Source of the DNA: Candidatus Omnitrophota bacterium
Lineage (GTDB): Bacteria > Omnitrophota > Gorgyraeia > 2-01-FULL-45-10
Direction of reading: 5' to 3'
Length of the DNA stretch: 34,027 bases
NCBI GenBank assembly: GCA_029004355.1
Contig: JAQURV010000005.1
Coordinates: 1-34,027 of the forward strand
Shown: one piece after another, positions 5,612-34,027 of the stretch
Position numbering within the stretch: position 1 is the first letter of the stretch
How the letters are laid out: each line of letters starts with the position of its first letter
Program-made: the position numbers and the translations under genes
Notes under the pieces: model-generated
Database searches by the model: none
Seen by the model: only the letters and a program-made list of their open reading frames with translations
What the model was told of the DNA's origin: nothing

Positions 5612-6388
5612 ATGCTGATAACGATCATCTTTATTTTCGGGCTGCTCATAGGCAGCTTCCTGAATGTCTGTATCTACAGGATGCCTAAGAGGGAGTCTAT
5701 AGTACTCCCGGCGTCACATTGCCCCGGCTGTAAAAAGCCCATTCCCTGGTATGACAATATCCCGCTCTTAAGCTATATCGCCCTGGGCGGGAAATGCAGG
5801 TTCTGCAAGATGGGGATAAATTTAAGATATCCGCTCGTCGAGGCGCTGACGGCGTCGGTATTGGCCGCGCTATTTGTCACATTCGATATCACGCCGAAAT
5901 TCTTCGCCTATTCGATCATGGCGTGCGGCCTGATCGTCGCGACCTTTGTAGATTTTGAGATACAGGAGATACCGGACGAGATCTCGCTGGGCGGGATTGC
6001 CGCGGGATTTTTCCTTGCGTTCGTCTTCCCGTCGGTCATGGGAGAAGCGGTCCGGTCGCGCGCTATATTGGGTTCGCTTTCGGGCGCGATCACGGGCGGC
6101 GGCATCATATACCTTCTGGGCGTAGCGGGCAAGATCGCGTTTAAGAAAGAGGCGATGGGCGGCGGGGACGTCAAGCTGATGGCGATGCTCGGCTCATTTC
6201 TCGGATTGAAGCTGGTGGTATTGACGTTCTTCATCGCGCCTTTCCTGGGCGTGGTGCAGGGGATAATATTGAAGTTCAGGAAGGGCGCCGAGACTATTCC
6301 GTACGGGCCGTTCCTTTCGGCGGCGGCTCTTATATCGGTATTTTTCGGGGATCAGATCATACGGTTGTTGTTCGGAGGACTATTTTAA
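5612..6388 (+). CDS. pilD: Prepilin peptidase (type IV leader peptidase / methylase)
   Basis: Inner-membrane aspartyl protease that removes the leader from type IV prepilins or type II pseudopilins and N-methylates the new end. The N-terminal methylase domain has two CxxC pairs (C37/C40 and C62/C65), followed by several hydrophobic helices. The catalytic aspartates are expected at D114 (in VDFEIQEIPD) and D186 in the GGGDVKL motif of the GxGD protease family. At 258 aa it is a normal bifunctional form. It starts immediately after aroE, inside an aromatic-biosynthesis run and away from other pilus genes. dprA downstream would fit a pilus-based DNA-uptake system (inference). It could equally serve type II secretion. 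Confidence 0.93.
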   Translation: MLITIIFIFGLLIGSFLNVCIYRMPKRESIVLPASHCPGCKKPIPWYDNIPLLSYIALGGKCRFCKMGINLRYPLVEALTASVLAALFVTFDITPKFFAYSIMACGLIVATFVDFEIQEIPDEISLGGIAAGFFLAFVFPSVMGEAVRSRAILGSLSGAITGGGIIYLLGVAGKIAFKKEAMGGGDVKLMAMLGSFLGLKLVVLTFFIAPFLGVVQGIILKFRKGAETIPYGPFLSAAALISVFFGDQIIRLLFGGLF

Positions 6389-15718: not shown

Positions 15719-16996
15719 ATGCTCTACGACATAGGATTCGCGATATTCTCGATCTTCTATCTACCGACGCTGATATTTAAAGGTAAGCTGCACGGAGATT
15801 TTTTCGAGCGGTTCGGCGCGTACGGCAAGGAGAAGAGGGAAGCGCTTGTCAAGGCGAAGGGCGCCATATGGATCCAGGCGGTGAGCGTAGGAGAGGTCGC
15901 GCTCTGCAGGAGCCTGGTCCCGCTCATAAGGGAGAAGTTCCCCGCGCGGCCGATCGTATTCTCGACGATAACAAAGACGGGTAATGACCTTGCGAAGAAG
16001 CTATTCGGAAAAGACGCGGTCGTCATATACTTTCCCCTCGACTTTTCATTTGTCGTGAAGAAGGTCGTCTCCCTGATAAAGCCGAAGATGTATATCATGG
16101 TCGAGACCGAGATATGGCCGAATTTTCTTAAGAAGATAGAACACGATACGGTCCCTGCCATCCTGATCAACGGCAGGATATCCGACAGGTCCTTCGGGAA
16201 GTACGAATTGGCAAGGCCGTTCCTGAGGCCCATTCTTAAAGATATGAATATATTATGCATGCAGTCGAAACTCGACGCCCAAAGGATAACCTCCCTCGGC
16301 GCCAGGCCCGAGCGGGTCAAGGTCACCGGTAATATGAAGTTCGATGTCCAGCTTAAAGTGGGGCGGGTAAGCGGCGATGATCTGAGAAACGAGTTAGGGC
16401 TGTTGCCGGGCGACGAGCTTCTAGTGGCCGGCTCGACGCACGCCGGCGAAGAAGGGGCGATCGTCACCGCGTTTAAAGAGCTGGCCGTGAAATTCCCGAA
16501 ACTTAAATTACTGATCGCTCCGCGGCATATCGAAAGGACCGGCGAGGTCGAAACGGTCATAAAGGAAGACGGTTTTGTACCGGTCCGGTTGTCCGGTCTC
16601 GGTAAAGCGGGGGATGCGTCAGGCGCCAGACGCATATACATCCTCGACACCATCGGGCGATTGAGCGATTTCTATTCGATAGCAACTATAGTCTTCGTGG
16701 GCGGCAGCCTCATAAAACACGGGGGCCAGAACCCGATAGAGCCGGCCATCTACGAGAAGCCGATAGTATTCGGCCAGTATATGTTCAACTTCAAGAATAT
16801 AGCCGAGGCGTTCCTCGCGAAAGAAGCAGCCGTCAGGATCGATAATGCGGGCGAACTGGTACCCGCTCTGTATAACTTACTGGCGGATGAAAAGAAGCGC
16901 CTGGAGGCAGGCAGGGCCGCGAAGAAGGTCGTCGTAGACAATATGGGCGCCACCGATCAGGTGTTGAGCGAGATGGCGAGGTTCCTCGATGCGTGA
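15719..16996 (+). CDS. waaA: Kdo (3-deoxy-D-manno-octulosonic acid) transferase
   Basis: Membrane-associated GT-B glycosyltransferase (GT30) that adds Kdo from CMP-Kdo to lipid IVA, starting the LPS inner core. An N-terminal hydrophobic segment is followed by the HGDFFERFG stretch, which carries the catalytic Glu region, then IWIQAVSVGE, VETEIWPN and, in the C-terminal domain, VGGSLIKHGGQNPIEPA. At 425 aa it has normal length. AGGAG (15711-15715) precedes the ATG by only 3 nt. lpxK overlaps by 8 nt. The donor-making enzymes KdsB, KdsA and KdsD are encoded at 31759-34027. How many Kdo residues it adds cannot be read from the sequence. Confidence 0.94.
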   Translation: MLYDIGFAIFSIFYLPTLIFKGKLHGDFFERFGAYGKEKREALVKAKGAIWIQAVSVGEVALCRSLVPLIREKFPARPIVFSTITKTGNDLAKKLFGKDAVVIYFPLDFSFVVKKVVSLIKPKMYIMVETEIWPNFLKKIEHDTVPAILINGRISDRSFGKYELARPFLRPILKDMNILCMQSKLDAQRITSLGARPERVKVTGNMKFDVQLKVGRVSGDDLRNELGLLPGDELLVAGSTHAGEEGAIVTAFKELAVKFPKLKLLIAPRHIERTGEVETVIKEDGFVPVRLSGLGKAGDASGARRIYILDTIGRLSDFYSIATIVFVGGSLIKHGGQNPIEPAIYEKPIVFGQYMFNFKNIAEAFLAKEAAVRIDNAGELVPALYNLLADEKKRLEAGRAAKKVVVDNMGATDQVLSEMARFLDA

Positions 16997-18035
16997 GCTT
17001 ATATATTCATTGATGACCGATAAACGTAACGGGCCGGTATTTGCCCCTGTAAAATTTTTGCTATACCTTGTCTCGCTCGGCTATGGGGCGGGGCTATTTG
17101 TGAGGCATATATTTTACAAGACAGGCATCTTCCGCTCCGAAAAGGTCCCCTTAAAGATAATATCGGTCGGCAATCTCACCCTGGGCGGGACGGGGAAGAC
17201 GCCATTTGTGATGCGGCTGGTCAAGATGCTGGACGAAGAGTGCGGCAAGCGCGCGAGCGTCCTTATCCGCGGCTACGGATGGGACGAACAGACGATGCTT
17301 AAACGCAAACTCGCCGATACCCCGATCCTTGTCGGCGAGGATCGCGCCAGGTCCGCCCACAAGGCGATAAAACTGTACGGAAGCGATACGGCGGTCCTCG
17401 ATGACGGGTTCCAGCATTGGGAGCTTGAGAGAAATCTGGACATAGTCCTTATCGATTCGCGCAATCCTTTAGGCAACGGTTGTCTCTTTCCCCGCGGGAT
17501 ATTGAGAGAGCCCAAAGAAGCGGTCAAGCGCGCCTCGGTCATCGTCTTCACAAAAGTAGATAAGGCCGGATCGGGATCGGACAATATAAGGAATGAGCTT
17601 AAGATGATAAATGGAAGGCTCGTCTTCATCGAGGCCGTCCACAAACCCGTATGCGTGTATGACCTTAAGGCGAGGAAAGCGCGCGCCCTGGACTTCCTGA
17701 AAGGAAAGCGGGTCGTCCTCCTATCCAGCATAGGCGACCCTGATTATTTCGCGGAGTCCGTCCGTCGGCTGGGCGCGGATATAGCGGAGCATGTCGTCTT
17801 CGCCGATCATCATAACTATGATCAAGCCGACGCCGTCCGTATTACCAAGAGATGCGACGAGAGGAAGTTCGATTTTATATTAACGACCGAAAAGGATGAG
17901 GTTAAATTGAGAAGGATGTCATTATCGTTCGGAGACTACCCTGTGATGACCCTCAATATAGAGATGGATATAATTTCGGGAAAGGATGAGCTCGTTGATA
18001 GATTACGTAGCCTATATAGCCGTAAGGGCGCTTAA
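16989..18035 (+). CDS. lpxK: Tetraacyldisaccharide 4'-kinase
   Basis: Inner-membrane-associated kinase that phosphorylates the 4' position of the lipid A disaccharide. An N-terminal hydrophobic segment (about 20-42) is followed by the P-loop GNLTLGGTGKTP (residues 61-72), GYGW near 95-98 and the family motif DDGFQHWEL (138-146). The C-terminus has TTEKDEVKL. At 348 aa it is typical. The start overlaps waaA by 8 nt, and the next gene starts 50 nt before its stop, so the waaA-lpxK-acyltransferase genes form one tightly packed lipid A operon. Confidence 0.94.
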   Translation: MRELIYSLMTDKRNGPVFAPVKFLLYLVSLGYGAGLFVRHIFYKTGIFRSEKVPLKIISVGNLTLGGTGKTPFVMRLVKMLDEECGKRASVLIRGYGWDEQTMLKRKLADTPILVGEDRARSAHKAIKLYGSDTAVLDDGFQHWELERNLDIVLIDSRNPLGNGCLFPRGILREPKEAVKRASVIVFTKVDKAGSGSDNIRNELKMINGRLVFIEAVHKPVCVYDLKARKARALDFLKGKRVVLLSSIGDPDYFAESVRRLGADIAEHVVFADHHNYDQADAVRITKRCDERKFDFILTTEKDEVKLRRMSLSFGDYPVMTLNIEMDIISGKDELVDRLRSLYSRKGA

Positions 18036-19938
18036 TAAGATACTTGGGTTCGTGCCGATAAGCGCGTCGCTGTGGCTCGGCAGGCGCATCGGGGACGTCG
18101 TCTTCTTCTTTAATAAGGAGAGGCGGCTCGTCGCCTACGCCAACCTGAAGAGCGCGTTCGCCGGCGAGAAGACGCCTTCGGAGCTGAGGTCCATCACGAA
18201 GAGGGTATACCGCAATATGGTCCAGACTTTCGTGGAGCTCCTGAACCTTACGAAGGTCAACCGCAAATATTGCGACCGGTATGTGGAAGTCGTGAATATG
18301 GACCGCATCCGCAACGCCTCGAAGTCCGGGAGGGGCACCATACTCCTTACGGCGCACTTCGGCGATTGGGAGCTCTCCAGCCTCGTCAGCTCGGTAGAAG
18401 GATTTCCCATCCTCGTTCTCGTGAGGGAACAGAAGATGAAGCGCCTGAACGAGCTTTTGAATACCCTGAGAGAATCGAACGGCTGCAAGGTCATCAGGAA
18501 GGGGATGGATGTAAAGAATATATTGAAGGCGCTTTACGGGAAGAATATAGTAGGCATTCTTTCCGACCAGGACGCCGGCAAGAACGGCGTCTTCGTCGAT
18601 TTCTTCGGCCGCCCGACCTCTTACCATTCCGGGCCGTTCGAGATCGCGAAGCATACGGGTTCGCTCATATTGCCTAATTTTATAGTCCGCACCGGCGGGC
18701 CCTATCATAAACTTTACCTCGAAGAGTATATAGACTTCGGGAAAGGTCCCAAGGACGGCGATATGAAAGAGAATGTGCAGAGATTCGCGAAACTTCTCGA
18801 GGATTATATACGAAAATACCCCGACCAGTGGCTCTGGCTCCACAAGAGGTGGAAGTCGACGCCTGTCCGCACCGTCCTTGTCCTGAATGACGGCAAGGCG
18901 GGCCACCTGAATCAATCTATGGCCGTAGCGGATCAGCTCCGCCGGGCCAGGATGACTCAAGGTTATGGTCCTGAGGATACTAAGGTAGTCGTGGTCGACG
19001 TTAAGTATAAGAGCAGGTTTTCGCGCGTCCTGCTTACGGCTTGCGCGAGCCTCGTCGGCTGGCGCTGTCACGGGCGGATGGGGATCATGAAGCTCTGCCT
19101 CGAGAAAGAGACTTACGATACGCTGATGAAGACGTATTCGGAATTCGTAGTATCTTGCGGATCGGCTCTCGCGCCGGTCAATGTCTTTATAGCTAAAGAG
19201 AACTGCGCGAAGAACATAGTTGTCATGAGGCCGAATATGCCGATCGGCCTGGGTAAATTCAACCTGGCGGTCATACCGAGGCACGATAAGCCGCGGAACG
19301 CGAAGAACGTAGTCGTGACGGATCTCGCGCCGAACCTGATAGATGAGACGAAACTCGCGAAGGGCGCCGAAAGCATGAAGGACCACCTTCACGCGGACGT
19401 AAAAGACGCGGTGGCGCTTTTTGTGGGCGGAGATAACCCCGAGTTCAGGCTGACGGGCGATATCATGAATTCGGTGATACAGGGCGTGTCGGAGTTCTGC
19501 AACCGTTCGGGCGCATCGATGCTGACGACGACATCGCGGAGGACCTCGCCCGAGATCGAGAATATACTTAAGAAGAGGCTGAATAATTATCCCAGGAGCA
19601 AGCTCCTTGTGGTCGCCAACGACAGGAATTTCGATTTTACGGTAAGCGGGATGCTCGCTTTGAGCAAAGTTGCCATAGTCTCGGAAGAATCTATCTCTAT
19701 GATCTCGGAGGCGATCAGCGCGGGTAAGAAGGTGGTGGTCTTCCGGCTGTCGAAGAATGCCGAAGCGATCACTAAACATGAACGCGCCCTGAAGAGCCTG
19801 GAGAAGGAAGGGTACGTTGCCATTACAGAGTCGTCGAACCTTATGAACGCGCTGGAAAAGGTATGGAACGATAAGGCGCCCGTGACTCCGCCGAAGGACA
19901 TGGAGCGCGTCTTCGAGGCTCTTCGGAAACTTATATAG
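17986..19938 (+). CDS. LpxL-like acyltransferase fused to ELM1-family domain
   Basis: A 650-aa fusion. Residues 1 to about 290 are a lipid A late acyltransferase (LpxL/HtrB, LPLAT) domain, with H124 and E129 in AHFGDWE as the HX4E active site, SDQDAGKNGVFVDFFGRP at 193-210 and an N-terminal hydrophobic segment. Residues about 295-650 match the ELM1 (DUF1022) family, a GT-B-like fold, with the signature NDGKAGHLNQS at 301-311 and a C-terminal SEESISMISEA stretch. Bacterial ELM1-like proteins have no firm function but often accompany lipid A genes; linking acylation to a sugar-transfer step is an inference. The ATG at 17986 lies inside lpxK; a TTG at 17995 is an alternative start. The reading frame is continuous across the domain boundary. 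Confidence 0.88.
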   Translation: MSSLIDYVAYIAVRALNKILGFVPISASLWLGRRIGDVVFFFNKERRLVAYANLKSAFAGEKTPSELRSITKRVYRNMVQTFVELLNLTKVNRKYCDRYVEVVNMDRIRNASKSGRGTILLTAHFGDWELSSLVSSVEGFPILVLVREQKMKRLNELLNTLRESNGCKVIRKGMDVKNILKALYGKNIVGILSDQDAGKNGVFVDFFGRPTSYHSGPFEIAKHTGSLILPNFIVRTGGPYHKLYLEEYIDFGKGPKDGDMKENVQRFAKLLEDYIRKYPDQWLWLHKRWKSTPVRTVLVLNDGKAGHLNQSMAVADQLRRARMTQGYGPEDTKVVVVDVKYKSRFSRVLLTACASLVGWRCHGRMGIMKLCLEKETYDTLMKTYSEFVVSCGSALAPVNVFIAKENCAKNIVVMRPNMPIGLGKFNLAVIPRHDKPRNAKNVVVTDLAPNLIDETKLAKGAESMKDHLHADVKDAVALFVGGDNPEFRLTGDIMNSVIQGVSEFCNRSGASMLTTTSRRTSPEIENILKKRLNNYPRSKLLVVANDRNFDFTVSGMLALSKVAIVSEESISMISEAISAGKKVVVFRLSKNAEAITKHERALKSLEKEGYVAITESSNLMNALEKVWNDKAPVTPPKDMERVFEALRKLI

Positions 19939-20410: not shown

Positions 20411-22510
20411 ATGAATATTTTACAGGTTCTGCCATCACTGGATATCGGCGGAGTCGAGACAGGGACGATAGATCTCGCGAAGTATCTCGTCAGCCGCGGG
20501 CATAAGGCCATCACCATCTCTTCCGGCGGCAGGCTCGTCCGGGAGCTCGACGCTATCGGCGCGCGCCATTACAATCTGCCCATCGGCAAAAAGTCCCTTA
20601 TTAATATCATCCGCATGATAAAAGAGGTGTGCGAGATCATCCGCAGGGAAGATATCGATATCGTGCACGCCCGCTCGCGCGTCCCGGCCCTGATAGCGTA
20701 TATAGCGTGCAAGGCTTCGAACAAGGCATTTCTCACGACCGCCCACGGTTATTACAGGAAACATCTCATGAGCGAGGCGATGGGCTGGGGCAAGTATGTC
20801 ATAGTGGCCTCGAATATAATGGCAAAGCACATGGTGAATAATTTCAAAGTGCCGTATGACAGGATACGCCTGATACCGCGCGGCGTGGACCTCGAGTGGT
20901 TTACCTTCAGGGATCCGTCGGCGCATTCTCCGGCCGGTTTTACGGTCGGGATGGTCTCCAGGATAACCCCGCTTAAAGGACATGCCGATTTTGTAAGGGC
21001 GATAGCCATTCTCAACCGGCAGATACCGAACCTGCACGCCGTGATAGTGGGCGAAGCTCCTAAGAGTAAATATAAGGAGGACCTTGAGCTTCTCATCAGG
21101 AGGCTTGGCCTCTCCAATACGATAGAGTTCCTCTCCGCGACTAACGATGTGCCCAACGTGATGAAGAAGCTGGACGTGCTCGTCTCCGCCACCATAACTC
21201 CGGAGGCGTTCGGGAGGGTAATAATAGAGGCCCAGGCCTCCGGCGTACCGGTCGTCGCTACGCAGGTCGGCGGCGTAGTCGATATTATAGAAGACAGTAA
21301 GACGGGACTCTTATGTTCGCCCCAGAACCCGAAAGACATGGCCGAGAAAGTGCTTAAACTTTACAAGGACAGGGCGCTATGGATGAATCTTGCGATAGGA
21401 TCGAGGCGGCACGTAGAGTCGTATTTTAACCTGGAAAAGATGATGGAGAAGACGCTCGCCGTCTATGAGGAGGCCCTTGCCACAGTGAACATCCTAGTTA
21501 TAAAGATCAGCGCGATAGGCGATGTCATATTGAGCGTGCCGTCGTTGAAGGCGATACGGGCCAAATACCCCAGGGCGAATATCAAGGTCCTGGTCGGCGT
21601 ACAGTCCAGGGAAGCGCTCGACGGGTGCCCGTATATAAATGAAAGGATCGTATGCGATCTCAAAGGCAGACACCGCGGTATCTTCGGCCTGTGGCGCCTT
21701 GGAAAAGAGCTGCGGAGTTCCTGCTTCGACATCGCGATAGATCTACAGAATTCGAAGAGGAGCCACCTGCTGGCCGCGTTGAGCCTCGCACCTCTAAGGT
21801 ACGGTTACGATAATAAGAAACTGTCGTTCCTTTTGAACAGGCGCCTCCGGGACGACGCGCCTTACCTCGACCCGATCGAGCACCAGTTCAGGACGCTGCG
21901 GATGGCGGCCATAAAACCGCAGGAGAAGTGTCTGGAACTCTGGCCGTCGCCCGCGGAAGAGGATCGCGCCGAAAAACTCCTGACGGAAGGGTGGATGACT
22001 CCGTCCGCCGGGCTCGTGGGCGTCAATGTCAGGGCATCCTCGAGATGGGTCACGAAAAATTGGCCGGTCTCGTATATTGCCGAACTGTCGGACAGGCTCG
22101 CGAAAGAGTTCAATGTAAGGACGGTCCTGACCGGCGCCGAAGAGGATATCGATTTTGCCCAGGCGATAGCGAGGTCGGCTAAGTCCAAGCCGCTCGTCGC
22201 GGCCGGCAAGACGAGCATCCTGGAACTAGCCAGTCTCATCAGGCGTTTTAAGGTCTATCTGACGCCCGATTCCGCGCCGATGCATATAGCCGCTGCCATG
22301 GGCACGCCGTGCATAGCGCTATTTGGCCCGACAAATCCCGAGCGCCACGTGCCTCCTTCGGGGACCTGCATGGTCATATCGAAGAAAGACGAATTAAAGT
22401 GCAGTCCGTGCTACAATCCAAATTGTGTCAAGAATTTCGTATGCATGAAGAAGATAACCGTCGATGAAGTGCTCGAGGCGATGCGGCCGTACCTGAAAGA
22501 AGGCGTTTAA
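20411..22510 (+). CDS. Two-domain glycosyltransferase: GT4 fused to GT9 (heptosyltransferase-like)
   Basis: A 699-aa protein with two complete GT-B enzymes. Residues 1 to about 355 are a GT4 retaining transferase: N-terminal DIGGVETGTIDLA, VSRITPLKGH (182-191) and the EX7E pair E265/E273. Residues 359-699 are GT9, the heptosyltransferase family: ILVIKISAIGDVILSVPSL, the TPDSAPMHIAAAMGTP stretch and a C-terminal cluster of four Cys (CSPCYNPNC...C). Both probably extend the LPS core or a related surface glycan at the inner membrane. V359 is encoded by GTG (21485) with GAGGAGG 11 nt upstream, so the GT9 half may also be made separately. The ATG start has only a weak ribosome binding site next to element C. 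Confidence 0.9.
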   Translation: MNILQVLPSLDIGGVETGTIDLAKYLVSRGHKAITISSGGRLVRELDAIGARHYNLPIGKKSLINIIRMIKEVCEIIRREDIDIVHARSRVPALIAYIACKASNKAFLTTAHGYYRKHLMSEAMGWGKYVIVASNIMAKHMVNNFKVPYDRIRLIPRGVDLEWFTFRDPSAHSPAGFTVGMVSRITPLKGHADFVRAIAILNRQIPNLHAVIVGEAPKSKYKEDLELLIRRLGLSNTIEFLSATNDVPNVMKKLDVLVSATITPEAFGRVIIEAQASGVPVVATQVGGVVDIIEDSKTGLLCSPQNPKDMAEKVLKLYKDRALWMNLAIGSRRHVESYFNLEKMMEKTLAVYEEALATVNILVIKISAIGDVILSVPSLKAIRAKYPRANIKVLVGVQSREALDGCPYINERIVCDLKGRHRGIFGLWRLGKELRSSCFDIAIDLQNSKRSHLLAALSLAPLRYGYDNKKLSFLLNRRLRDDAPYLDPIEHQFRTLRMAAIKPQEKCLELWPSPAEEDRAEKLLTEGWMTPSAGLVGVNVRASSRWVTKNWPVSYIAELSDRLAKEFNVRTVLTGAEEDIDFAQAIARSAKSKPLVAAGKTSILELASLIRRFKVYLTPDSAPMHIAAAMGTPCIALFGPTNPERHVPPSGTCMVISKKDELKCSPCYNPNCVKNFVCMKKITVDEVLEAMRPYLKEGV
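21467..21487 (+). promoter_or_regulatory. Possible internal translation start for the GT9 half
   Basis: GAGGAGG (21467-21473) lies 11 nt before an in-frame GTG (21485-21487), exactly where the GT9 domain begins. Free-standing GT9 proteins start with the same kind of sequence. It may be a relic of two separate genes or a working second start. The GAGGAGG also encodes part of the linker (Glu-Glu-Ala), so chance is possible. Confidence 0.4.
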
Positions 22511-23608: not shown

Positions 23609-24386
23609 GCGGATATTATTTATAGGGATAGTGGCGGTAGCGGTGATAGCGGTTGTTTCCGCCGTCATATATGTCGAGACATCCTATACCGTTCCCATCC
23701 TGATGTATCATTCTATAAATAACGACGCCGGGGCTACCAAGCTATCGGTCTCCCCGGAAGATTTTGCCAGGCAGATGGAATTTTTACACAAAAATCATTA
23801 TAATGTCGTGCCGCTTGAAAAGGCCGTCCCTTTCATCAAGAAGAAAGAGAGGCCGCCGCAGAAGACCATAGCGATAACTTTTGACGACGGCTTTCGCGAT
23901 AATTACGTTTATGCATATCCGGTGCTGAAGAGATACGATATCCCGGCGACCATCTTTGTTGTCATGGACTGGGTAGGCACGTCGCCGAAATACATGGATT
24001 GGGACGAAATAAAGGAGATGTCCGATTCCGGCCTTATCGCTATAGGCAGCCATACTAATGAACACCACTGGCTCTTAGATTCGGACGAAGACATCCTTAA
24101 GGCCGAGGTTGAGGGTTCTAAGAAGACCCTGGAGAGCCGTATCGGGCGCAAGGTCAACGTCTTCTGCTATCCAATGGGCAGGTTTGACGAAAGGTCGAAG
24201 AAGGCGGTAGAGGCGGCAGGTTATTTATGCGCGGTATCTACGAATTCCGGGGACGTGTCCCTGGATGACGTTTACGGCATTAATCGCGTGAGGATATCCC
24301 GCTCGTCGGGTAACTTATTTATCTTTTGGGCCGAGACGACGAGATGCTATGCATGGTTCAAGCAATTTCGCAAGGTAGTTTCATGA
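23601..24386 (+). CDS. Membrane-anchored polysaccharide deacetylase (NodB/CE4)
   Basis: A 261-aa protein with an N-terminal signal anchor (about residues 5-25) and a CE4 NodB domain. The motifs are TFDDGFRDN (catalytic and metal Asp pair), SHTNEH (metal His) and FCYPMGRFDE. It probably removes N-acetyl or other acyl groups from a glycan on the outer face of the inner membrane. The GTG at 23601 is taken as start because GAGG lies just upstream and the hydrophobic anchor follows at once; it overlaps the preceding gene by 8 nt. The next gene begins in its last codons (ATGA overlap). Located among glycosyltransferases, it may trim a precursor of the same glycan. Confidence 0.9.
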   Translation: MRRRILFIGIVAVAVIAVVSAVIYVETSYTVPILMYHSINNDAGATKLSVSPEDFARQMEFLHKNHYNVVPLEKAVPFIKKKERPPQKTIAITFDDGFRDNYVYAYPVLKRYDIPATIFVVMDWVGTSPKYMDWDEIKEMSDSGLIAIGSHTNEHHWLLDSDEDILKAEVEGSKKTLESRIGRKVNVFCYPMGRFDERSKKAVEAAGYLCAVSTNSGDVSLDDVYGINRVRISRSSGNLFIFWAETTRCYAWFKQFRKVVS

Positions 24387-25417
24387 AGAAAAGAATATTG
24401 ATAGTCAATGTCAACTGGATAGGCGATACGCTCTTCTCGACGCCTTTTATACGCGCCGTGAGGGATGCGTATCCTGACAGCTACATCGCCTGTCTTCTCC
24501 ATCCGAGATGCGTCGAGATGCTCGAGCTGAATCCCCGATTGGACGAGATAATCATATACGATGAAGAGGGCGTTCATAAAGGGCTCTTCGGTAAGCTTGC
24601 CCTGATAGCGTCGCTGCGGAAGAAGCGTTTCGATACCGCGTTCCTTCTCCACGGGTCCTTTACGAAAGCATTCATAGCGTTCCTTGCAGGCATAAAAGAA
24701 CGGGTGGGGTATCCTACGAAGAAGAGGCAGATGCTGCTGACGAAGGTGGTCGAGGCGCCGTCGGAAGAGCTGCACAAGGTAGAATATTTTTTGAATATCG
24801 CCAGGGCTTACGGCCTGGCGCCGAAGAGCGTTTCGTATGAATTTTTTATAGACGATTCCCATAAAAGATTTATAGCGGGCCTGCTCCGGGAGTCGGGCGT
24901 TTCCGAGGGGGACAGGATCGTCGTCCTGTGTCCGGGCGGCAATTGGGACCCCAAGAGATGGCCGAAGGAGAATTTTGCGGCATTGGCGGATACACTGGCC
25001 AAAGAATACGGCGTCAGGATCGTGATATCCGGCGCGCGGAAGGACCTGAGGCTCGCCGAAGAGATAAGGGGCATGATGAAGGCGAAGCCGATAATTATCG
25101 CCGGGAGGATGACGCTGAAGGAACTCGGGGCGCTCTTTTTGCACGCCGGCCTTGTTATCGCGAACGATTCGGGGCCGATGCACCTTGCCGTAGCTATGAA
25201 GGCAAGGACGATCGCTCTCTTTGGCCCGACCTCGCCGGCCATCACGGGACCGTATGGCGAAGGCCGCTATAAAGTGATCTCGAAGAACGATACCTGCGAC
25301 ATACCATGCTATGATGTCACGTGCCGGGACAACCGTTGCATGGCCGCGATAAAGGTCGAGGATGTGCTGAAAGAAGCGAAGGAAGCGTTAATGACAAACT
25401 GCCGGGCCGCAAGATGA
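24383..25417 (+). CDS. GT9 heptosyltransferase-like protein, first of three
   Basis: A 344-aa GT9 family protein (ADP-heptose:LPS heptosyltransferase type). It begins ILIVNVNWIGDTLFSTPFIRA, as WaaF-like proteins do, and has CPGGNWDPKRWP in the middle, ANDSGPMHLAVA and ALFGPTSP in the C-terminal half, and a terminal Cys cluster CDIPC...C...CM. The ATG at 24383 is chosen because it overlaps the deacetylase stop (ATGA) and gives the family start; the frame is open further upstream inside the deacetylase gene. It is the one of the three that looks most like heptosyltransferase II. The donor cannot be proven, but a heptose kinase is encoded at 30764. Confidence 0.9.
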   Translation: MKKRILIVNVNWIGDTLFSTPFIRAVRDAYPDSYIACLLHPRCVEMLELNPRLDEIIIYDEEGVHKGLFGKLALIASLRKKRFDTAFLLHGSFTKAFIAFLAGIKERVGYPTKKRQMLLTKVVEAPSEELHKVEYFLNIARAYGLAPKSVSYEFFIDDSHKRFIAGLLRESGVSEGDRIVVLCPGGNWDPKRWPKENFAALADTLAKEYGVRIVISGARKDLRLAEEIRGMMKAKPIIIAGRMTLKELGALFLHAGLVIANDSGPMHLAVAMKARTIALFGPTSPAITGPYGEGRYKVISKNDTCDIPCYDVTCRDNRCMAAIKVEDVLKEAKEALMTNCRAAR

Positions 25418-26391
25418 TAATAGACAAAACTCAGGTAAAGAGGATCCTGGTAATAACGTTGAGCAATGTGGGCGATATCATCCTTACTACGCCCGTTATC
25501 AAGGCGCTAGCGAAAGAATTTCCGGGGATCAGGCTCGACGTCATGGTCGGGCCGCAGGGTAAAGAGATATTTGAAAAGGACCCTCATGTCTTCAAGGTCA
25601 TCATTTACGACAAGCATCTGCCGATAGGCCAGAAGAGGCGGCTGCAGCTAAAGCTTAAAAAATTAAAATACGACCTTGTGGTCGATATCAGGAATACCGT
25701 GTTTCCTCTCCTGATCGGCCCGAGGTTCAGGACCGCGACGATACAGAACTTCCCGCACCATATCATTCACAGGAAGCTGCGCCATCTCTACAGGCTTAAA
25801 TCGGTGGGTATAGAGAAGATGGAAGAGTCGCCTTACATCCACACTACAAGCCAGGACGATGAGTACATCGACAGGATGCTCAAGGAGAACGATATCGTCG
25901 ATCCGATAGTCGTGATGAATGCAGGCGCGAAGAGCCATCTGAAGAGATGGACCGCCGGGGGGTTTGCGGAAGTGGCGGAAAGGCTTATGGCCGAATGCAG
26001 GGCCAGCGTGGTCTTCGTCGGGCTGAACGAAGACGAGGCGATAGTGAAAGAGGTCATTTCGCGGATGAACCGTAAGCCGCATAATTTCGTCAATAAGACC
26101 AATATCAGGCAGCTCGCCAGCCTGCTCAAGCGCTCCAGGCTCCTCATAACAAATGACAGCGCGCCGCTCCATCTTGGATGCGCGGTCGGCGTAAAAGTGG
26201 TCGCATTATTCGGCCCCACGGATCCGCGTAAATACGGGCCGACGGGCGAATTCGACGTCGTCATTACAGAAAAATTATCATGCGCGCCTTGCGAGTGCGC
26301 CCAGTGCGCGCGTAACTATGAATGCATGCGGCTCATCTCTCCGGATGCCGTATTCGACGCCGCGAAGATGATGATCGAGGGATATGAGTAA
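25414..26391 (+). CDS. GT9 heptosyltransferase-like protein, second of three
   Basis: A 325-aa GT9 protein. The N-terminus has ILVITLSNVGDIILTTPVI, the middle NAGAKSHLKRW, and the C-terminal half TNDSAPLHLGCAVG, ALFGPTDP and a Cys-rich segment CAPCECAQC...CM. The ATG at 25414 overlaps the previous stop (ATGA). The upstream open frame lies inside the previous gene and is ignored. It starts after a few extra residues (MIIDKTQVKR) compared with its neighbours. Its end overlaps the start of the third GT9 by 8 nt. It likely transfers heptose or another sugar to the growing LPS core. Confidence 0.88.
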   Translation: MIIDKTQVKRILVITLSNVGDIILTTPVIKALAKEFPGIRLDVMVGPQGKEIFEKDPHVFKVIIYDKHLPIGQKRRLQLKLKKLKYDLVVDIRNTVFPLLIGPRFRTATIQNFPHHIIHRKLRHLYRLKSVGIEKMEESPYIHTTSQDDEYIDRMLKENDIVDPIVVMNAGAKSHLKRWTAGGFAEVAERLMAECRASVVFVGLNEDEAIVKEVISRMNRKPHNFVNKTNIRQLASLLKRSRLLITNDSAPLHLGCAVGVKVVALFGPTDPRKYGPTGEFDVVITEKLSCAPCECAQCARNYECMRLISPDAVFDAAKMMIEGYE

Positions 26392-27454
26392 AATCCAAAT
26401 GACAAAATCCAAAATCCAAAAACGGGGAGGCAAAAGAGTTCTTATCGTAAGGCTCGACAGGATAGGGGATGTCCTTCTCTCGACGCCTGTCATAAAGGCT
26501 GTCCGCGATGTCTGCCCCGACGGCCACATAGCTTTTATGGTCAGGAGATATGCCAAAGATATCCTGGAAGGCAATCCATACCTGGATGAGGTGATAGTCT
26601 ATGAAAAGACCGGGCGGGAGAGGGGATTTTTCAGGAACCTGGGTTTCGTACGGCACCTGCGCCGCAAAAAATTCGACATCGCCCTGATCCTGCACCCGAC
26701 GAAGAGGACGCATCTTCTTGTGTCGCTGGCAGGTATCCCCGAGACGGTCGGATACAACCGGAAGTGGGGATTCCTTCTTACCACGAGGATCCCGCATTCC
26801 AAACAGTATGGTCTGAAGCATGAGATCGATTATACCCTCGACATACTGAGATATACCGGATTAGAGCCCAGGGACAAGACCCTCTACATGCCGGTGAACA
26901 GCCATTCGGAATCGAAAGTGGACGAACTCTTAAGGACGAGCGGCATAGCTAAGGATGACCTTTGCGTCGCGATGAACCCGGGCGCCAGCTGTCCTTCGAA
27001 GAGATGGAAGCCGGATAAGTTCGCCAAGGTCGCGGACGCCCTGATCGAAAGATATGGGGCTAAGATAGTGGTGGTGGCGGCCGAGGCGGATAAAGGGCTG
27101 GGCGACAGGATCGCATCGCTGGTAAAGAAGGATTGCGTGAATCTGTCGGGCAGGACGAGCGTCGCCGATGTGGCGAGCGTACTGAGGCGGACGAAGCTCT
27201 TTATATCGAATGACTCCGGGCCGGTGCATATAGCATGCGCCGTAGGGACGCCGGTCATCGCGATATTCGGCAGGCATGACCGCGGGCTTTCGCCGACGCG
27301 CTGGGGACCGACAGGATGGCACGACGCGGTGCTCCATAAGGACGTGGGCTGCATCGAATGCCTTGCGCATAACTGCGCCAGGGGATTCAAATGTCTCGAG
27401 GCGGTAACGGCCGATGAGGTGCTCACAGCCGCTGCAAAAATATTGGGGAAGTAA
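26384..27454 (+). CDS. GT9 heptosyltransferase-like protein, third of three
   Basis: A 356-aa GT9 protein. After an odd, basic N-terminal tail (residues 2-17, SKIQMTKSKIQKRGGK) comes the family start VLIVRLDRIGDVLLSTPVI. NPGASCPSKRW, SNDSGPVHIACAVGTP and a terminal Cys cluster CIEC...C...C follow. The tail is encoded by a half copy of the family D repeat (26389-26422), so intergenic repeat DNA has become coding. The ATG at 26384 has GAGGG just upstream and overlaps the previous stop. No other ATG, GTG or TTG is obvious before the conserved part. Its TAA stop lies inside the terminus of palindrome A3. Confidence 0.88.
   Translation: MSKIQMTKSKIQKRGGKRVLIVRLDRIGDVLLSTPVIKAVRDVCPDGHIAFMVRRYAKDILEGNPYLDEVIVYEKTGRERGFFRNLGFVRHLRRKKFDIALILHPTKRTHLLVSLAGIPETVGYNRKWGFLLTTRIPHSKQYGLKHEIDYTLDILRYTGLEPRDKTLYMPVNSHSESKVDELLRTSGIAKDDLCVAMNPGASCPSKRWKPDKFAKVADALIERYGAKIVVVAAEADKGLGDRIASLVKKDCVNLSGRTSVADVASVLRRTKLFISNDSGPVHIACAVGTPVIAIFGRHDRGLSPTRWGPTGWHDAVLHKDVGCIECLAHNCARGFKCLEAVTADEVLTAAAKILGK
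26389..26422. repeat. Family D half copy inside a gene
   Basis: AAATCCAAAT and AAAATCCAAAATCC units matching the left arms of family D copies 1 and 2, here without a right arm. It begins at the end of the second GT9 gene and runs through codons 2-13 of the third GT9 gene, encoding the Lys/Ile/Gln-rich tail. It looks like a truncated insertion that kept the reading frame open. Confidence 0.7.
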
Positions 27455-29286: not shown

Positions 29287-29751
29287 ATGCTGCCTAAAGA
29301 ACTGGTCGACCTGCTCGAGACGAGAGAGTTTATAAGCGTAGCCACCTGTGATTTCGAGGGGCGGCCTAATGCGGCGCCGAAATTCATCCTGAAAGTAGAA
29401 GGCAGCCGCATATACCTGGTGGATTATATAATAGGCGCGACGTGGAAGAATCTTAAAGCGAACCCCAGGATATCGATGTCGCTTATAGATACGAGGACCC
29501 TCAAGGGTTATCAGCTCAACGGCGCCGCGAAGATAATGTCGCGGGGAAAGCTTTATGACAAGATGCGCGAGGAGATGACGGATAAAGAGGTACGTCTCAC
29601 GAGCCAGCATATAATAGATGAAGTCCGGGGGCAGCCTACACAGGAGACGTTCGAGATACTCTTCAGCGAAAAATTCATCATATTTGAGGTCAGGATAGAT
29701 GAGATCGTCGAGATGGATGTCCACGGCGAACTTAAGCGTAATAAAAAATAG
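29287..29751 (+). CDS. Pyridoxamine 5'-phosphate oxidase-like FMN-binding protein
   Basis: A 154-aa protein of the split-barrel flavin-binding superfamily. The N-terminal pattern (LLETREFISVATCDFEGRPN, then APKFILKVEG and IYLVDYIIG) is typical, with KNLKANPRISMSLID next. These proteins bind FMN, F420 or haem and reduce varied substrates, so no substrate can be named. It lies 9 nt after the YchF-like gene and is probably co-transcribed with it. AGGAGG sits just before the ATG. The last third is charged and ends KRNKK. Confidence 0.8.
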   Translation: MLPKELVDLLETREFISVATCDFEGRPNAAPKFILKVEGSRIYLVDYIIGATWKNLKANPRISMSLIDTRTLKGYQLNGAAKIMSRGKLYDKMREEMTDKEVRLTSQHIIDEVRGQPTQETFEILFSEKFIIFEVRIDEIVEMDVHGELKRNKK

Positions 29752-29806: not shown

Positions 29807-30745
29807 ATGAAGAGACAGAGAGTGGATCTTGAGAAGATAAAGACGATACCGCTTCAATTCCGGAAATGCAAGGTATCCATAGATGATTTTGCCAGGCCCG
29901 GCCGGAAGGGCGCTTCCTTCAAAGAGTTTTACGCGTCATTGCCGAACGTCCTTGCCAGCCAGAACCTGCAGGCGCTGGTCGACAAGATAACCAAGGCTTA
30001 CAAGGGCCGGAAGATGGTCATCCTGATGATGGGCGCGCATGTGATAAAGTGCGGCCTCTCGCCGCTTGTCATAGACCTGATGAGGCGAGGCGTCATAAAG
30101 GCGGTCGCCTTGAACGGGGCCGGCGTAATACACGATACCGAGATAGCTATGATAGGCAGGACCAGCGAGGATGTCGGGGAAGGCATACTCGACGGCTCGT
30201 TCGGCATGGCTAAGGAAACGGCCAATTTCATAAACGGCGCGATAAACGACGGATTTAAAGACGGCATAGGCATCGGCGAGGCTGTCGGCGCCAGGATAGC
30301 GAAGGCAAAGCTGCCGCACAGACGCTTCAGCATACTCGCCACCGGGCACGAGCTGAATATCCCGGTGACGGTCCATGTCGCGATAGGCACCGATATAATT
30401 CATCAGCACCCCAGCGCCAACGGCGAGGCCATAGGCGAGGGCTCGCTCCTCGACTTCAGGAATTTCATCTACAGCGTCGGGAGACTCGAAAACGGCGTTG
30501 CCGTCAATTTTGGTTCGGCGGTAATATTGCCGGAAGTCTTCCTGAAAGCGGTGACGGTCGCGCGGAATCTCGGCTATAAACTCAACGCGTTCAATACGGC
30601 CAATTTCGACATGATAAGCCAGTACAGGCCCTACCAGAACATACTTTCACGGCCGACGTCTTCCGGCGGTAAAGGGTATAATATCATCGGCCATCACGAG
30701 TTGATGTTCCCGCTCCTCTACCGCTCTATCATAGAGAAGATATAG
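29807..30745 (+). CDS. Deoxyhypusine synthase-like protein
   Basis: A 312-aa protein of the deoxyhypusine synthase (DHS) superfamily, an NAD-binding Rossmann-like fold. Clear signatures are MGAHVIKCGLSPLVIDLM, then ALNGAGVIHDTEIAMIG and GRTSEDV. True DHS makes the hypusine precursor on eukaryotic or archaeal eIF5A, which bacteria lack. The catalytic-Lys context of DHS (WGK) is not seen here; the C-terminal part has SSGGKGYNIIGHHE instead. The gene sits 18 nt before the heptose kinase gene, at the head of a heptose/Kdo precursor run. A role in that pathway or in polyamine-like chemistry is possible but unproven. Confidence 0.82.
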   Translation: MKRQRVDLEKIKTIPLQFRKCKVSIDDFARPGRKGASFKEFYASLPNVLASQNLQALVDKITKAYKGRKMVILMMGAHVIKCGLSPLVIDLMRRGVIKAVALNGAGVIHDTEIAMIGRTSEDVGEGILDGSFGMAKETANFINGAINDGFKDGIGIGEAVGARIAKAKLPHRRFSILATGHELNIPVTVHVAIGTDIIHQHPSANGEAIGEGSLLDFRNFIYSVGRLENGVAVNFGSAVILPEVFLKAVTVARNLGYKLNAFNTANFDMISQYRPYQNILSRPTSSGGKGYNIIGHHELMFPLLYRSIIEKI

Positions 30746-30763: not shown

Positions 30764-31762
30764 ATGCATACAATAGGTTTCGAAAAGATACAAAAAAAGA
30801 TAGGGAATTTTAAAAACGCGCGCGTGCTGGTGATCGGCGACCTCATACTGGACGAGTTTCTCTGGGGGGACGTCTCGCGGATATCGCCCGAAGCTCCCGT
30901 GCCGGTCGTCTGGGTCAAGAAGGAGAGTTTCATGCCCGGCGGGGCGTCAAATGTCGCCAATAATCTCCGTTCGCTCGGCGCAAACGTCTATCTGGCCGGC
31001 GTGATAGGCGATGACGAGCGCGGGGCGATCCTGAAGGGTGAGCTTGAGCAAAAGGGGATCCACACAGCCGGCGTGATAACGGATGATTCGAGGCCGACCA
31101 TCTTAAAGACGCGCGTTGTGGCCCAGCATCAGCAGGTTGTGCGGATCGACAAGGAGCGCGTCGAACCGCTGAGCGGCGGCATACTGGGAAAGCTTGTCGA
31201 GTATGTCGAGGGCGCGATGAAGGATGTCGACGCCGTTATAATCGAAGATTACGGCAAAGGCGTCATAACGTCGGCGCTGCTAAGCAAGGTGGTCCCCGCG
31301 GCCAAGAAGCATAGCAAGATCATTTCGGTCGATCCCAAGGAAGAGAATTTCAAGTATTACAAAGGCATAAGCGTTATCACTCCGAATAATTACGAAGCCT
31401 CGAAGGCGGTCGGATTTGAAATTAAAGATGAGGCGACGCTGCTCAAGGCGGGCCAGACGCTCCTGACCAAACTAAATTGCAAGATAGCTCTCATAACGCT
31501 GGGCGAACACGGCATGGCAGTATTCCAGAAATCGAAACCGGTGAAGCATATACCGACGGTGGCGCAGGAAGTCTTCGATGTCTCAGGCGCCGGCGACACG
31601 GTCATAGCTACTTATACTCTGTCGCTTGCGGCGGGCGCGGATCCGATAATGTCGGCGCATATAGCGAATTGCGCCGCCGGTATCGTTGTCGGTAAAGTGG
31701 GCATAGCGGTGGTAACGCCGAACGAACTTTTAGATAGAATAAAGAGGGAGCTGGATAAATGA
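30764..31762 (+). CDS. rfaE1: D-glycero-beta-D-manno-heptose-7-phosphate kinase (RfaE domain 1)
   Basis: PfkB/ribokinase-family kinase that adds a phosphate at C1 of heptose-7-phosphate on the way to ADP-heptose. Motifs are GDLILDEFLWGDVSRISPEAPVP split over residues 25-47, PGGASNVANNL (58-68), and DVSGAGDT (272-279) with catalytic Asp278. At 332 aa it is the kinase part only; the adenylyltransferase domain fused in E. coli HldE is absent and must be encoded elsewhere. kdsB overlaps by 4 nt (ATGA). With several GT9 proteins upstream this supports heptose in the LPS core. Confidence 0.93.
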   Translation: MHTIGFEKIQKKIGNFKNARVLVIGDLILDEFLWGDVSRISPEAPVPVVWVKKESFMPGGASNVANNLRSLGANVYLAGVIGDDERGAILKGELEQKGIHTAGVITDDSRPTILKTRVVAQHQQVVRIDKERVEPLSGGILGKLVEYVEGAMKDVDAVIIEDYGKGVITSALLSKVVPAAKKHSKIISVDPKEENFKYYKGISVITPNNYEASKAVGFEIKDEATLLKAGQTLLTKLNCKIALITLGEHGMAVFQKSKPVKHIPTVAQEVFDVSGAGDTVIATYTLSLAAGADPIMSAHIANCAAGIVVGKVGIAVVTPNELLDRIKRELDK

Positions 31763-32508
31763 GGGTGATCGGAGTAATACCCGCGCGTTGGGGCGCGACA
31801 AGGTTCGAAGGTAAGGTCCTGGCCAATCTTCTGGGGAAACCCGTCATACAACATGTCTGGGAGAACGCCAGGAAGGCCAAGACGCTCGACGATCTGATAG
31901 TTGCATGCGACGACGAGCGCATAATGAAGGTCGTGGAAGGTTTCGGCGGCAAGGCCATCTACACGTCTCCCGACCAGCCGTCCGGCACGGACAGGCTTGC
32001 CGAGGTCGTGAATCCTATGGCTGTAGACATAGCTGTGAATATCCAGGGGGACGAGCCTCTCATCAAACCTATCATCATCGACAGCCTGGTGATAGCGCTG
32101 CAGAACGAAAAGCTGGCCCAGATGGCGACGGTGATAAAAAGGATAGAAGATGACTCCGAGCTTACGAGCTCACACGTCGTTAAGGTCGTATTCGATAAGA
32201 ACGGCTACGCTATATATTTCTCGCGCTACGCCATTCCCTACAACAGGACGAGCGAAATAGACGAGACCAAGAGGCCGGTATACTATAAGCATATAGGGCT
32301 CTACGCATTTACCAAGGATTTTCTATTCACATTCAGGAATCTTCCGAAGTCGACTCTCGAGAACGCGGAGAAGCTTGAGCAGCTCAGGGTGATCGAGAAC
32401 GGCTATAAGATAAAGATCGTCGAGACGAAGCTCGATACGATCGGGGTCGACAGGCCGGAGGACCTGAAGAGGGCCGAAGACGCGCTCTTAAAAGAGAGAG
32501 AAAAATAA
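31759..32508 (+). CDS. kdsB: CMP-Kdo synthetase (3-deoxy-manno-octulosonate cytidylyltransferase)
   Basis: Activates Kdo with CTP to give CMP-Kdo, the donor for WaaA. The N-terminal [17 protein letters not shown] is the nucleotide-binding start. [10 protein letters not shown] and [10 protein letters not shown] (metal and CTP binding) follow, then the [10 protein letters not shown] segment and [11 protein letters not shown]. At 249 aa it has the usual length. It overlaps the heptose kinase gene by 4 nt, and kdsA follows 2 nt after its stop. Confidence 0.95.
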
Positions 32509-32510
32509 TA

Positions 32511-33326
32511 ATGAAGGAGATACAGGCAGGCAATATCAGGATGGGCGCGGACAATCCGTTTGTTTTGATAGCCGGACCTTGCGTTATCGAATCGGAGGCG
32601 AGCGCCATGCGCCACGCCAAATCGCTGAAGGCGATAGCCGGGAAGCTCGGCATCCCGTTCATCTATAAATCGAGCTTCGACAAGGCCAACAGGACCTCGA
32701 TACATTCTTTCCGCGGCCCCGGCCTGAAGAAGGGCCTGGCCATACTTAAGAAGATCAAAGATACCCTGGGGGTGGCCGTCCTGTCGGATGTCCATTGCAA
32801 GGGGGATGTAAAAGACGCCGCGAAGGTGCTCGACGTCATCCAGATCCCGGCCTTTCTTTCGCGGCAGACCGATCTTATAGTCGCCGCCGCGGAGTCCGGC
32901 AAGACCATCAATATAAAGAAGGGGCAGTTCCTTGCTCCGTGGGACATGAAGAACGTTATCGTAAAGATAGAAGCTACCGGGAATAAGAAGATAATCCTGA
33001 CGGAGCGGGGCGTAAGCTTCGGGTATAATAACCTGGTGAGCGATTTTCGTTCCATATCTATAATGAAGGAATTCGGCTATCCCGTTGTATACGACGCAAC
33101 GCATTCGGTCCAGATGCCGGGAGGCCTCGGAAGCAAGTCGGGGGGAGAGAGCCGCTTTATCCCGTATCTTTCCCGGGCGGCTGTAGCGTGCGGCGCGGAC
33201 GGCATCTTTATGGAAGTCCACGAAGATCCCGAGACCGCGTTAAGCGACGGGCCGAACATGGTAAGGCTGGAGGCCTTGGAAGCGATCCTTTTGAAGTTGA
33301 AGAAGATAGAGAAGGCCGTTAAATAA
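32511..33326 (+). CDS. kdsA: Kdo-8-phosphate synthase
   Basis: Condenses arabinose-5-phosphate with phosphoenolpyruvate to Kdo-8-phosphate. Motifs are [10 protein letters not shown] (19-28), [11 protein letters not shown] (53-63) and [11 protein letters not shown]. Cys24 in AGPC marks the metal-dependent class (Aquifex-type), in contrast to the Asn found at this place in the metal-independent E. coli enzyme. At 271 aa it is typical. Its TAA overlaps the start of kdsD (TAATG). Confidence 0.95.
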
Positions 33327-34027
33327 TGTCGAAGAATATAGCAAGAGAAGTCCTTAGGATAGAACGCGATGCCCTTACAAGCCTTGCGGCGAGGATAGGG
33401 CCGGGCTTTGACAGGATAATAAATGTTATAAGCAAAACCAGGGGCCGTGTCATAGTGACGGGCATGGGCAAACCTGGTTTCATCGCCCAGAAGATATCCG
33501 CGACCCTGTCGTCTACCGGGACACCGTCATTATATCTTCATCCCGCGGAAGCGCTCCATGGCGACCTCGGCCGCGTAACTAAGGACGACCTTATAATCGC
33601 ATTATCGAACAGCGGTGAGACCGAAGAGATCGTGAAGTTTCTCCCGATCGTCAAGAAGATCGGCGCGAAACTCGTAGCCATGACCGGGAATGTCAAGTCT
33701 ACCCTGGGAAGGTTCGCGGATCATTCGATCGACGTTTCTGTGAAGAAGGAGGCGTGTTCGCTCGGGCTGGCTCCTACCGCTTCCACGACGGCGATGCTTG
33801 CGATGGGAGACGCCCTGGCTGTGGCCCTTCTGGAGAAGAAGGGGTTCAGGGAGAAAGACTTTGCGTTCTTTCATCCGGGCGGTATACTGGGCAAACGGCT
33901 CATATTGAAAGTAGGCGATATCATGAGAAGCGGGCCGGCCAATCCTATCGTAAGAGAGACTACGCCTGTAAAGAAGGTGCTGGTCGCGATAACGAAGGCT
34001 CGCGCGGGCTCGGCGAGCGTAGTCGAT
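33326..34027 (+). CDS. kdsD: Arabinose-5-phosphate isomerase (3' partial)
   Basis: Isomerises ribulose-5-phosphate to arabinose-5-phosphate, the first step to Kdo. 234 codons are visible before the window ends. The SIS domain shows VIVTGMGKPGFIAQKISATL, then HPAEALHGDLG and ALSNSGETEEI, and further on PTASTTAMLAMGDALA and FHPGGILGKRL. The sequence then enters the first CBS domain (DIMRSG onward). The start overlaps the kdsA stop. KpsF and GutQ are relatives with the same activity; the position after kdsA supports KdsD. With kdsB and kdsA, only the phosphatase KdsC of the CMP-Kdo pathway is not seen here. Confidence 0.94.
   Translation, partial: MSKNIAREVLRIERDALTSLAARIGPGFDRIINVISKTRGRVIVTGMGKPGFIAQKISATLSSTGTPSLYLHPAEALHGDLGRVTKDDLIIALSNSGETEEIVKFLPIVKKIGAKLVAMTGNVKSTLGRFADHSIDVSVKKEACSLGLAPTASTTAMLAMGDALAVALLEKKGFREKDFAFFHPGGILGKRLILKVGDIMRSGPANPIVRETTPVKKVLVAITKARAGSASVVD

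Follow-up and report, generated by a model that had tools for sequence, protein, structure and literature searches.

We propose that a protein of the deoxyhypusine synthase (DHS) fold group, here termed DHSL, is an NAD-dependent non-orthologous replacement of HldD in the outer-membrane heptose pathway, a reading to which, judging from sequences and a structural model, we give a probability of about 0.5. Heptose synthesis is a textbook pathway whose usual last step is catalysed by the ADP-heptose 6-epimerase HldD, an extended short-chain dehydrogenase. If the proposal holds, DHSL would be a new, unrelated enzyme for this established step or for one closely akin to it. The proposal builds on the family and the fold of DHSL, its operon link, the presence of the remaining pathway genes, the exclusion of HldD and a shared operon slot, all of which were observed computationally. 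It goes beyond the sequence-only reading of the same DNA, which had raised an undescribed NAD-dependent step in envelope sugar or polyamine metabolism.

The window is the whole stretch of DNA analysed, 34,027 nucleotides of a contig from an Omnitrophota genome. DHSL is encoded on its plus strand by a 312-codon ORF (29807-30745), which is uninterrupted by stops and whose ATG start codon is preceded by AAAAGGAAAGCGT. We identified the product as a DHS-fold protein of the GSU2086 family by its match to NF052581 (430 bits), its fold and the alignment of its relatives. Its stop codon is separated by 18 nt from the start of hldA for heptose-7-phosphate kinase (30764-31762; TIGR02198, 398 bits, cut-off 345). 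On the same strand follow kdsB for CMP-Kdo synthetase (31759-32508; NF003952, 311 bits), which overlaps hldA by 4 nt, kdsA for Kdo-8-phosphate synthase (32511-33326; NF003543, 423 bits) and a gene for a KdsD-like arabinose-5-phosphate isomerase (33326-34027), an open-ended ORF that runs off the end of the window and whose identity was read from the sequence; in relatives, tblastn finds kdsD-like matches in register after kdsA. ORFs and HMM matches agree with the spacing and the gene order given in the sequence-only reading. Its placement of the gene at the head of an operon, however, is not fully accurate, since in relatives DHSL can directly follow GT9 genes, as it does in locus L011 after the third of them. 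The gene lies within a larger LPS-core cluster. Three GT9 (heptosyltransferase-type) genes, identified by reading the sequence, precede it on the plus strand of the window (24326-25417, 25321-26391 and 26384-27454), and the order GT9a-GT9b-GT9c-DHSL-hldA is kept in relatives. Also upstream, and read in the same way, are waaA (15719-16996), lpxK (16989-18035) and several glycosyltransferase genes. A gene for a 154-amino-acid PNPOx-like protein (29287-29751, plus strand; PF01243, 60.6 bits) is an inconstant partner, found upstream of DHSL in only some close relatives. No promoter-like site was found upstream of DHSL on the plus strand between 29540 and 29806.

In an NCBIfam scan DHSL belongs to NF052581, the "GSU2086 family", with 429.8 bits against a cut-off of 250, the match covering model positions 2-300 of 301 and DHSL residues 6-306 of 312. 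According to the literature and databases searched, this is a family named by NCBI to which no function is attached. "Undescribed" is therefore apt for the function and too strong for the protein, whose family exists and whose member GSU2086 features in a Geobacter Tn-seq paper. Matches to DHS models are weak: Pfam DS reaches 17 bits over residues 50-115, below its cut-off of 27, and NCBIfam dhys 17.3 bits against a cut-off of 304. The same NCBIfam scan gave no match to TIGR02197, the HldD family. A phmmer search with DHSL found no match, a PDB sequence search with the DHSL profile found nothing significant, and a profile-profile alignment of DHSL with four DHS sequences is locally weak (probability 12%, E 0.002). 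The fold match, in contrast, is clear. An AlphaFold2 model of DHSL, built from a 60-sequence alignment (pLDDT 93.7, pTM 0.90), is matched by Foldseek to the DHS of Pyrococcus horikoshii (7cmc; E 1.8e-9, probability 1.00), and the DHS matches listed have TM scores of 0.5-0.67 at 9-15% identity. The DHS-superfamily membership claimed from the sequence is thus borne out by the predicted structure. The next-best Foldseek match is an LOR/SDH protein (PDB 3c2q) of the LOR/SDH and ArgZ C-terminal Rossmann family (PF21570), to which viral relatives of DHSL give weak Pfam matches. Members of that family are amino-acid enzymes with other domains, and we know of no link between them and heptose.

The DHS of P. 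horikoshii contacts NAD through Thr101, Ala102, Gly103, Glu107, Asp214, Ser262, Thr286, Ala287 and Asp320; in addition, His266 makes a stacking contact with NAD, and the catalytic residue is Lys307 (PMC7432094). We mapped these residues onto DHSL by motif alignment and by eye, a mapping that is least certain in the C-terminal part. The DHS motif TTAGGVEED aligns with LNGAGVIHD of DHSL, whose positions vary little or not at all within the family, the NAD-site residues Asp214 and Ser262 correspond to D196 and S237, both invariant in the 60-row alignment of the DHSL family, and the position of Glu107 is taken by an invariant His109. Within the limits of the alignment, the DHS active-site Lys is not visible, as had been remarked from the sequence: the catalytic Lys (329 in human, 307 in P. 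horikoshii) has no conserved DHSL counterpart in a region where the alignment is uncertain, and in the nearest column, K289, no more than 53 of 80 relatives have Lys. Likewise no conserved His is found at the place that aligns, with similar uncertainty, with His288 of the human and His266 of the P. horikoshii enzyme. The alignment of DHSL with 60 relatives has 51 invariant columns. The invariant polar residues in its 60 rows include H78, K81, H109, D110, E112, E121, D196, H199, H201, E243, K247, D268 and R274; among those that stay invariant when the short, second-cluster and long subtypes are compared are H78, N103, H109, D110, E112, E121, E137, H190, D196, H201, D216, S237, K247, N254, D268 and R274. 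By its fold DHSL thus belongs with the DHS group, but its active site differs. With DHS (PF01916, TIGR00321; PDB 7cmc, 1dhs) it has in common the fold, the N-terminal NAD-site motif region and the NAD-site Asp and Ser, whereas its low identity, its lack of the catalytic Lys and His and its gene context set it apart. From the fold and the two conserved NAD-site residues we infer that DHSL may bind NAD.

A polyamine enzyme, either DHS or one resembling homospermidine synthase, that sits in the operon by chance would account for the DHS fold and for the weak DS and dhys matches. We rejected a polyamine or hypusine enzyme as most improbable: the scores fall far below the family cut-offs, the catalytic K307 and His266 of P. 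horikoshii are unconserved by alignment, and the heptose linkage is conserved across several phyla and on mobile elements. The neighbourhood of DHSL holds no polyamine genes. Of the two roles first considered, envelope sugar metabolism stands as the likeliest for the NAD-dependent step, and polyamine metabolism falls. The accompanying premise that bacteria offer no eIF5A target went too far, since bacterial DHS homologues with other functions are known, such as the Thermus homologue that is an agmatine homocoupling enzyme (PMC10981699).

The association with heptose/Kdo genes, singled out beforehand as the point to check, is conserved in relatives. A scan of GTDB contigs yielded 562 confirmed relatives of DHSL; in the best 80 of these 562 the heptose kinase gene lies directly downstream of DHSL in 60. 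Within the same best 80, grouped by record title, hldA is directly downstream in 48/48 Omnitrophota, 9/10 Verrucomicrobia, 3/10 members of other or unnamed groups and 0/12 Poribacteria; in several Poribacteria the DHSL gene stands, by eye, after an O-antigen-ligase-like gene. In an even sample of Omnitrophota, hldA adjoins DHSL in 29 of the 36 genomes with DHSL. The linkage extends to Geobacter sulfurreducens, where hldE (GSU2085), GSU2086 and gmhA (GSU2087) are consecutive (PMC5585712). GSU2086 has the same family and the same heptose-gene association as DHSL, the difference being that the kinase there is the bifunctional HldE, whereas hldA and hldC are separate genes here. The Tn-seq study of this organism lists GSU2086 among sugar-operon genes with a fitness defect, calling its product a hypothetical protein, and reports electrode-growth defects of -3.1 for hldE, -3.2 for GSU2086 and -3.7 for gmhA (PMC5585712), values to be read with the caveat that Tn-seq effects of genes in one operon can be polar. 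These published genetics support a place of GSU2086 in the same pathway as hldE and gmhA.

To the operon link comes a complementary occurrence with HldD. The even sample comprises 117 Omnitrophota genomes, with presence scored over the model cut-off; DHSL is present in 36 and HldD in 67. HldD occurs in 4/36 genomes with DHSL versus 63/81 without it (Fisher p 8e-12), so that both are found in 4 genomes, DHSL alone in 32, HldD alone in 63 and neither in 18, or in 16 if two matches just below the HldD cut-off count as present. At family level, 12 families are of the DHSL type, 22 of the HldD type and 5 have neither, while none has mainly both. As a control for kinship we used a tree of 105 HldA proteins, although hldA may travel with DHSL. 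On this tree the DHSL state changes at least 13 times, and among 10 independent supported pairs HldD changes opposite to DHSL in an average of 7.3 and never in the same direction (median sign-test p 0.016). Outside Omnitrophota, only 2/32 genomes with DHSL have HldD and 30/32 have an HldC-like gene; in 145 Verrucomicrobiota HldD occurs in 4/13 genomes with DHSL versus 97/132 without (p 0.003). The exclusion is a strong tendency and no strict rule. Both enzymes are found in the genome of the window itself, with HldD on contig C32, in G051, G075 and G104, and in four Verrucomicrobiota.

Plain contamination as the source of the HldD gene on C32 was considered and not established: the GC content of the contig is 0.518 versus 0.520 for the window, its tetranucleotide distance (0.15-0.16 versus 0.11) is only slightly larger, and the neighbourhood gcv-nikR-cbiM of this HldD gene is found again in G051 and G104. 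HldD genes that coexist with DHSL (L082 7492-8466, L092 6366-7328, L093 5360-6322) lie away from the LPS operon and have recurring glycine-cleavage, NikR-like and CbiM-like neighbours.

The rest of the pathway accompanies DHSL. In the 36 Omnitrophota genomes with DHSL, hldA is over its cut-off in 35, hldC in 33 and a gmhA-type gene is present in 33, and a GmhB-like phosphatase is found in 32/36 genomes with and 71/81 without DHSL. All four are nearly ubiquitous in the 117 genomes, with DHSL or not. These counts bear on the idea that DHSL stands in for the GmhA isomerase or the GmhB phosphatase instead, which would suit the organisms where DHSL adjoins gmhA and hldA and the fact that only one Omnitrophota match passes the curated GmhB cut-off. 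We consider this very unlikely and rejected it, since both enzymes are present alongside DHSL; gmhA even lies beside DHSL in Geobacter and on plasmids, and a phosphatase is ill-suited to an NAD-type fold.

DHSL and HldD can also stand at one and the same place in the operon. In G019, G033 and G082 a collinear operon GT9-GT9-GT9-X-hldA-kdsB-(pyrG)-kdsA has HldD as X, and in 29/36 genomes with DHSL the slot X is taken by DHSL. The GT9c proteins of the HldD operons are 54% and 43% similar to that of the window, compared with 45-57% in distant DHSL operons. Because this similarity is equal in both operon types, it suggests that the same donor sugar is used. The pattern recurs in a second heptose cluster, which is divergent: G016 and G102 have DHSL2-hldE-gmhA, the hldE being a reverse fusion, where G107 has an HldD-like epimerase-hldE-gmhA. 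A Solidesulfovibrio plasmid carries the DHSL form of this cluster as hldE-DHSL-SIS, with transketolase genes nearby. DHSL and HldD would thus share the proposed step, the operon slot in some relatives, the proposed NAD-type chemistry and a complementary occurrence, but they are unrelated in sequence and in fold family. In the second clusters at L084 3394-6480, L085 3860-7404 and L212 7453-10534, the HldE fusion is reversed, with the adenylyltransferase domain first and the kinase second; the GmhA is divergent, and genes for radical SAM and transketolase-like proteins are nearby.

The main rival to HldD replacement is that DHSL acts in the heptose pathway to give another product, D,D-heptose or another isomer, by a different NAD-dependent epimerisation or oxidation, HldD being absent as L,D-heptose is not made. 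It accounts for the exclusion of HldD equally well, and the 16 genomes with neither enzyme may manage without C6 epimerisation; indeed, because sixteen Omnitrophota have neither DHSL nor HldD, an epimerase may be dispensable. Four such genomes (G002, G003, G034 and G079) have a completeness of 92% or more. It would also suit the longer DHSL subtype in HAD-DHSL-PfkB(-SIS) modules, which have no adenylyltransferase nearby. Against it, the GT9 transferases look equally similar in both operon types and the slot is the same, for which one product is the simplest explanation. We regard another product as possible but doubtful.

The modules in question are HAD-DHSL-PfkB in some Verrucomicrobiota and HAD-DHSL-PfkB-SIS on a Chloroflexota plasmid. 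They perhaps serve heptose-phosphate metabolism outside LPS. Since no adenylyltransferase stands beside them, they point to a heptose phosphate as the substrate, at least of the longer DHSL subtype. On the Chloroflexota plasmid plas-ZRK (L213 8044-11474) the SIS protein is GmhA-like and sugar ABC transporter genes adjoin the module; in L100, L104, L214 and L218 a HAD phosphatase gene, DHSL and a PfkB gene of the heptose-kinase-like type form it. The longer subtype (about 370 amino acids) is encoded in L101, L103, L215, L216, L217, L219, L220 and L221, loci in which no heptose kinase was found nearby. It occurs in Verrucomicrobiota and in one Omnitrophota genome, G010, in which gmhA finds no match and hldC a marginal one at best.

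DHSL relatives are also found on viral contigs. In L208 (IMGVR_UViG_3300032053_000215, 3507-5805) an overlapping hldC-DHSL-hldA operon forms a phage-borne heptose module with DHSL in its middle; two sugar-nucleotide SDR genes follow, the first dTDP-glucose 4,6-dehydratase-like. Three other contigs (L209 452-1366, L210 and L211 both 3881-4795) carry a 304-amino-acid relative between the genes for the terminase large subunit and the portal protein, with no heptose genes in view. A 201-kb viral contig (L205 3938-4930) encodes a 330-amino-acid relative, 44% identical to DHSL, without heptose neighbours. The INPHARED phages gave no match to DHSL. That some viral contigs carry such relatives without heptose genes would fit a role as regulator, partner or metabolite-repair protein for the heptose operon, with no catalysis in the main pathway. 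A precedent is the inactive DHS paralogue of trypanosomatids, which serves as an activator (PMC3663545). We hold such a role to be unlikely, since the dozens of invariant polar residues resemble an active site and the exclusion of HldD would be unexpected.

For HldD replacement a mechanism can be outlined by analogy. In the DHS reaction bound NAD oxidises the substrate by taking up a hydride, which is restored in the final step (PMC7226451). This is arguably the kind of chemistry that a sugar epimerase requires. With NAD held in a site of the DHS type, DHSL would briefly oxidise the heptose unit, at C6 as HldD does, and then hand the hydride back on the opposite face, yielding the L-glycero-D-manno form used by heptosyltransferases. 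The redox chemistry is suggested by likeness to the hydride transfer of DHS and to the NAD-dependent epimerase HldD; C6 would be the probable position, and the substrate would be either ADP-heptose or a heptose phosphate. We see an even chance that, as sequences and model suggest, NAD-dependent sugar epimerases of a new class have evolved from the DHS fold, acting on ADP-heptose or heptose phosphates and standing in for HldD in several phyla, with copies on plasmids and phages. The literature searched contained no paper treating DHS together with heptose. If the proposal is true, many genomes judged to lack L,D-heptose need re-reading, GSU2086 and its electrode phenotype in Geobacter would be explained, and the DHS fold would reach sugars, beyond polyamine and protein-modification chemistry. 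ADP-heptose is also an innate immune signal (PMC10948575), which lends weight to knowing the isomer that a given bacterium produces.

Finally, two further ORFs of the window are of note. One (20411-22510) encodes a 699-amino-acid protein in which a GT4-type glycosyltransferase is fused to one of the GT9 type, and it is kept in relatives. The other (17986-19938) encodes a 650-amino-acid protein with an LpxL/HtrB-like acyltransferase part and a C-terminal part that, by eye, resembles a mitochondrial-fission ELM1-like domain.
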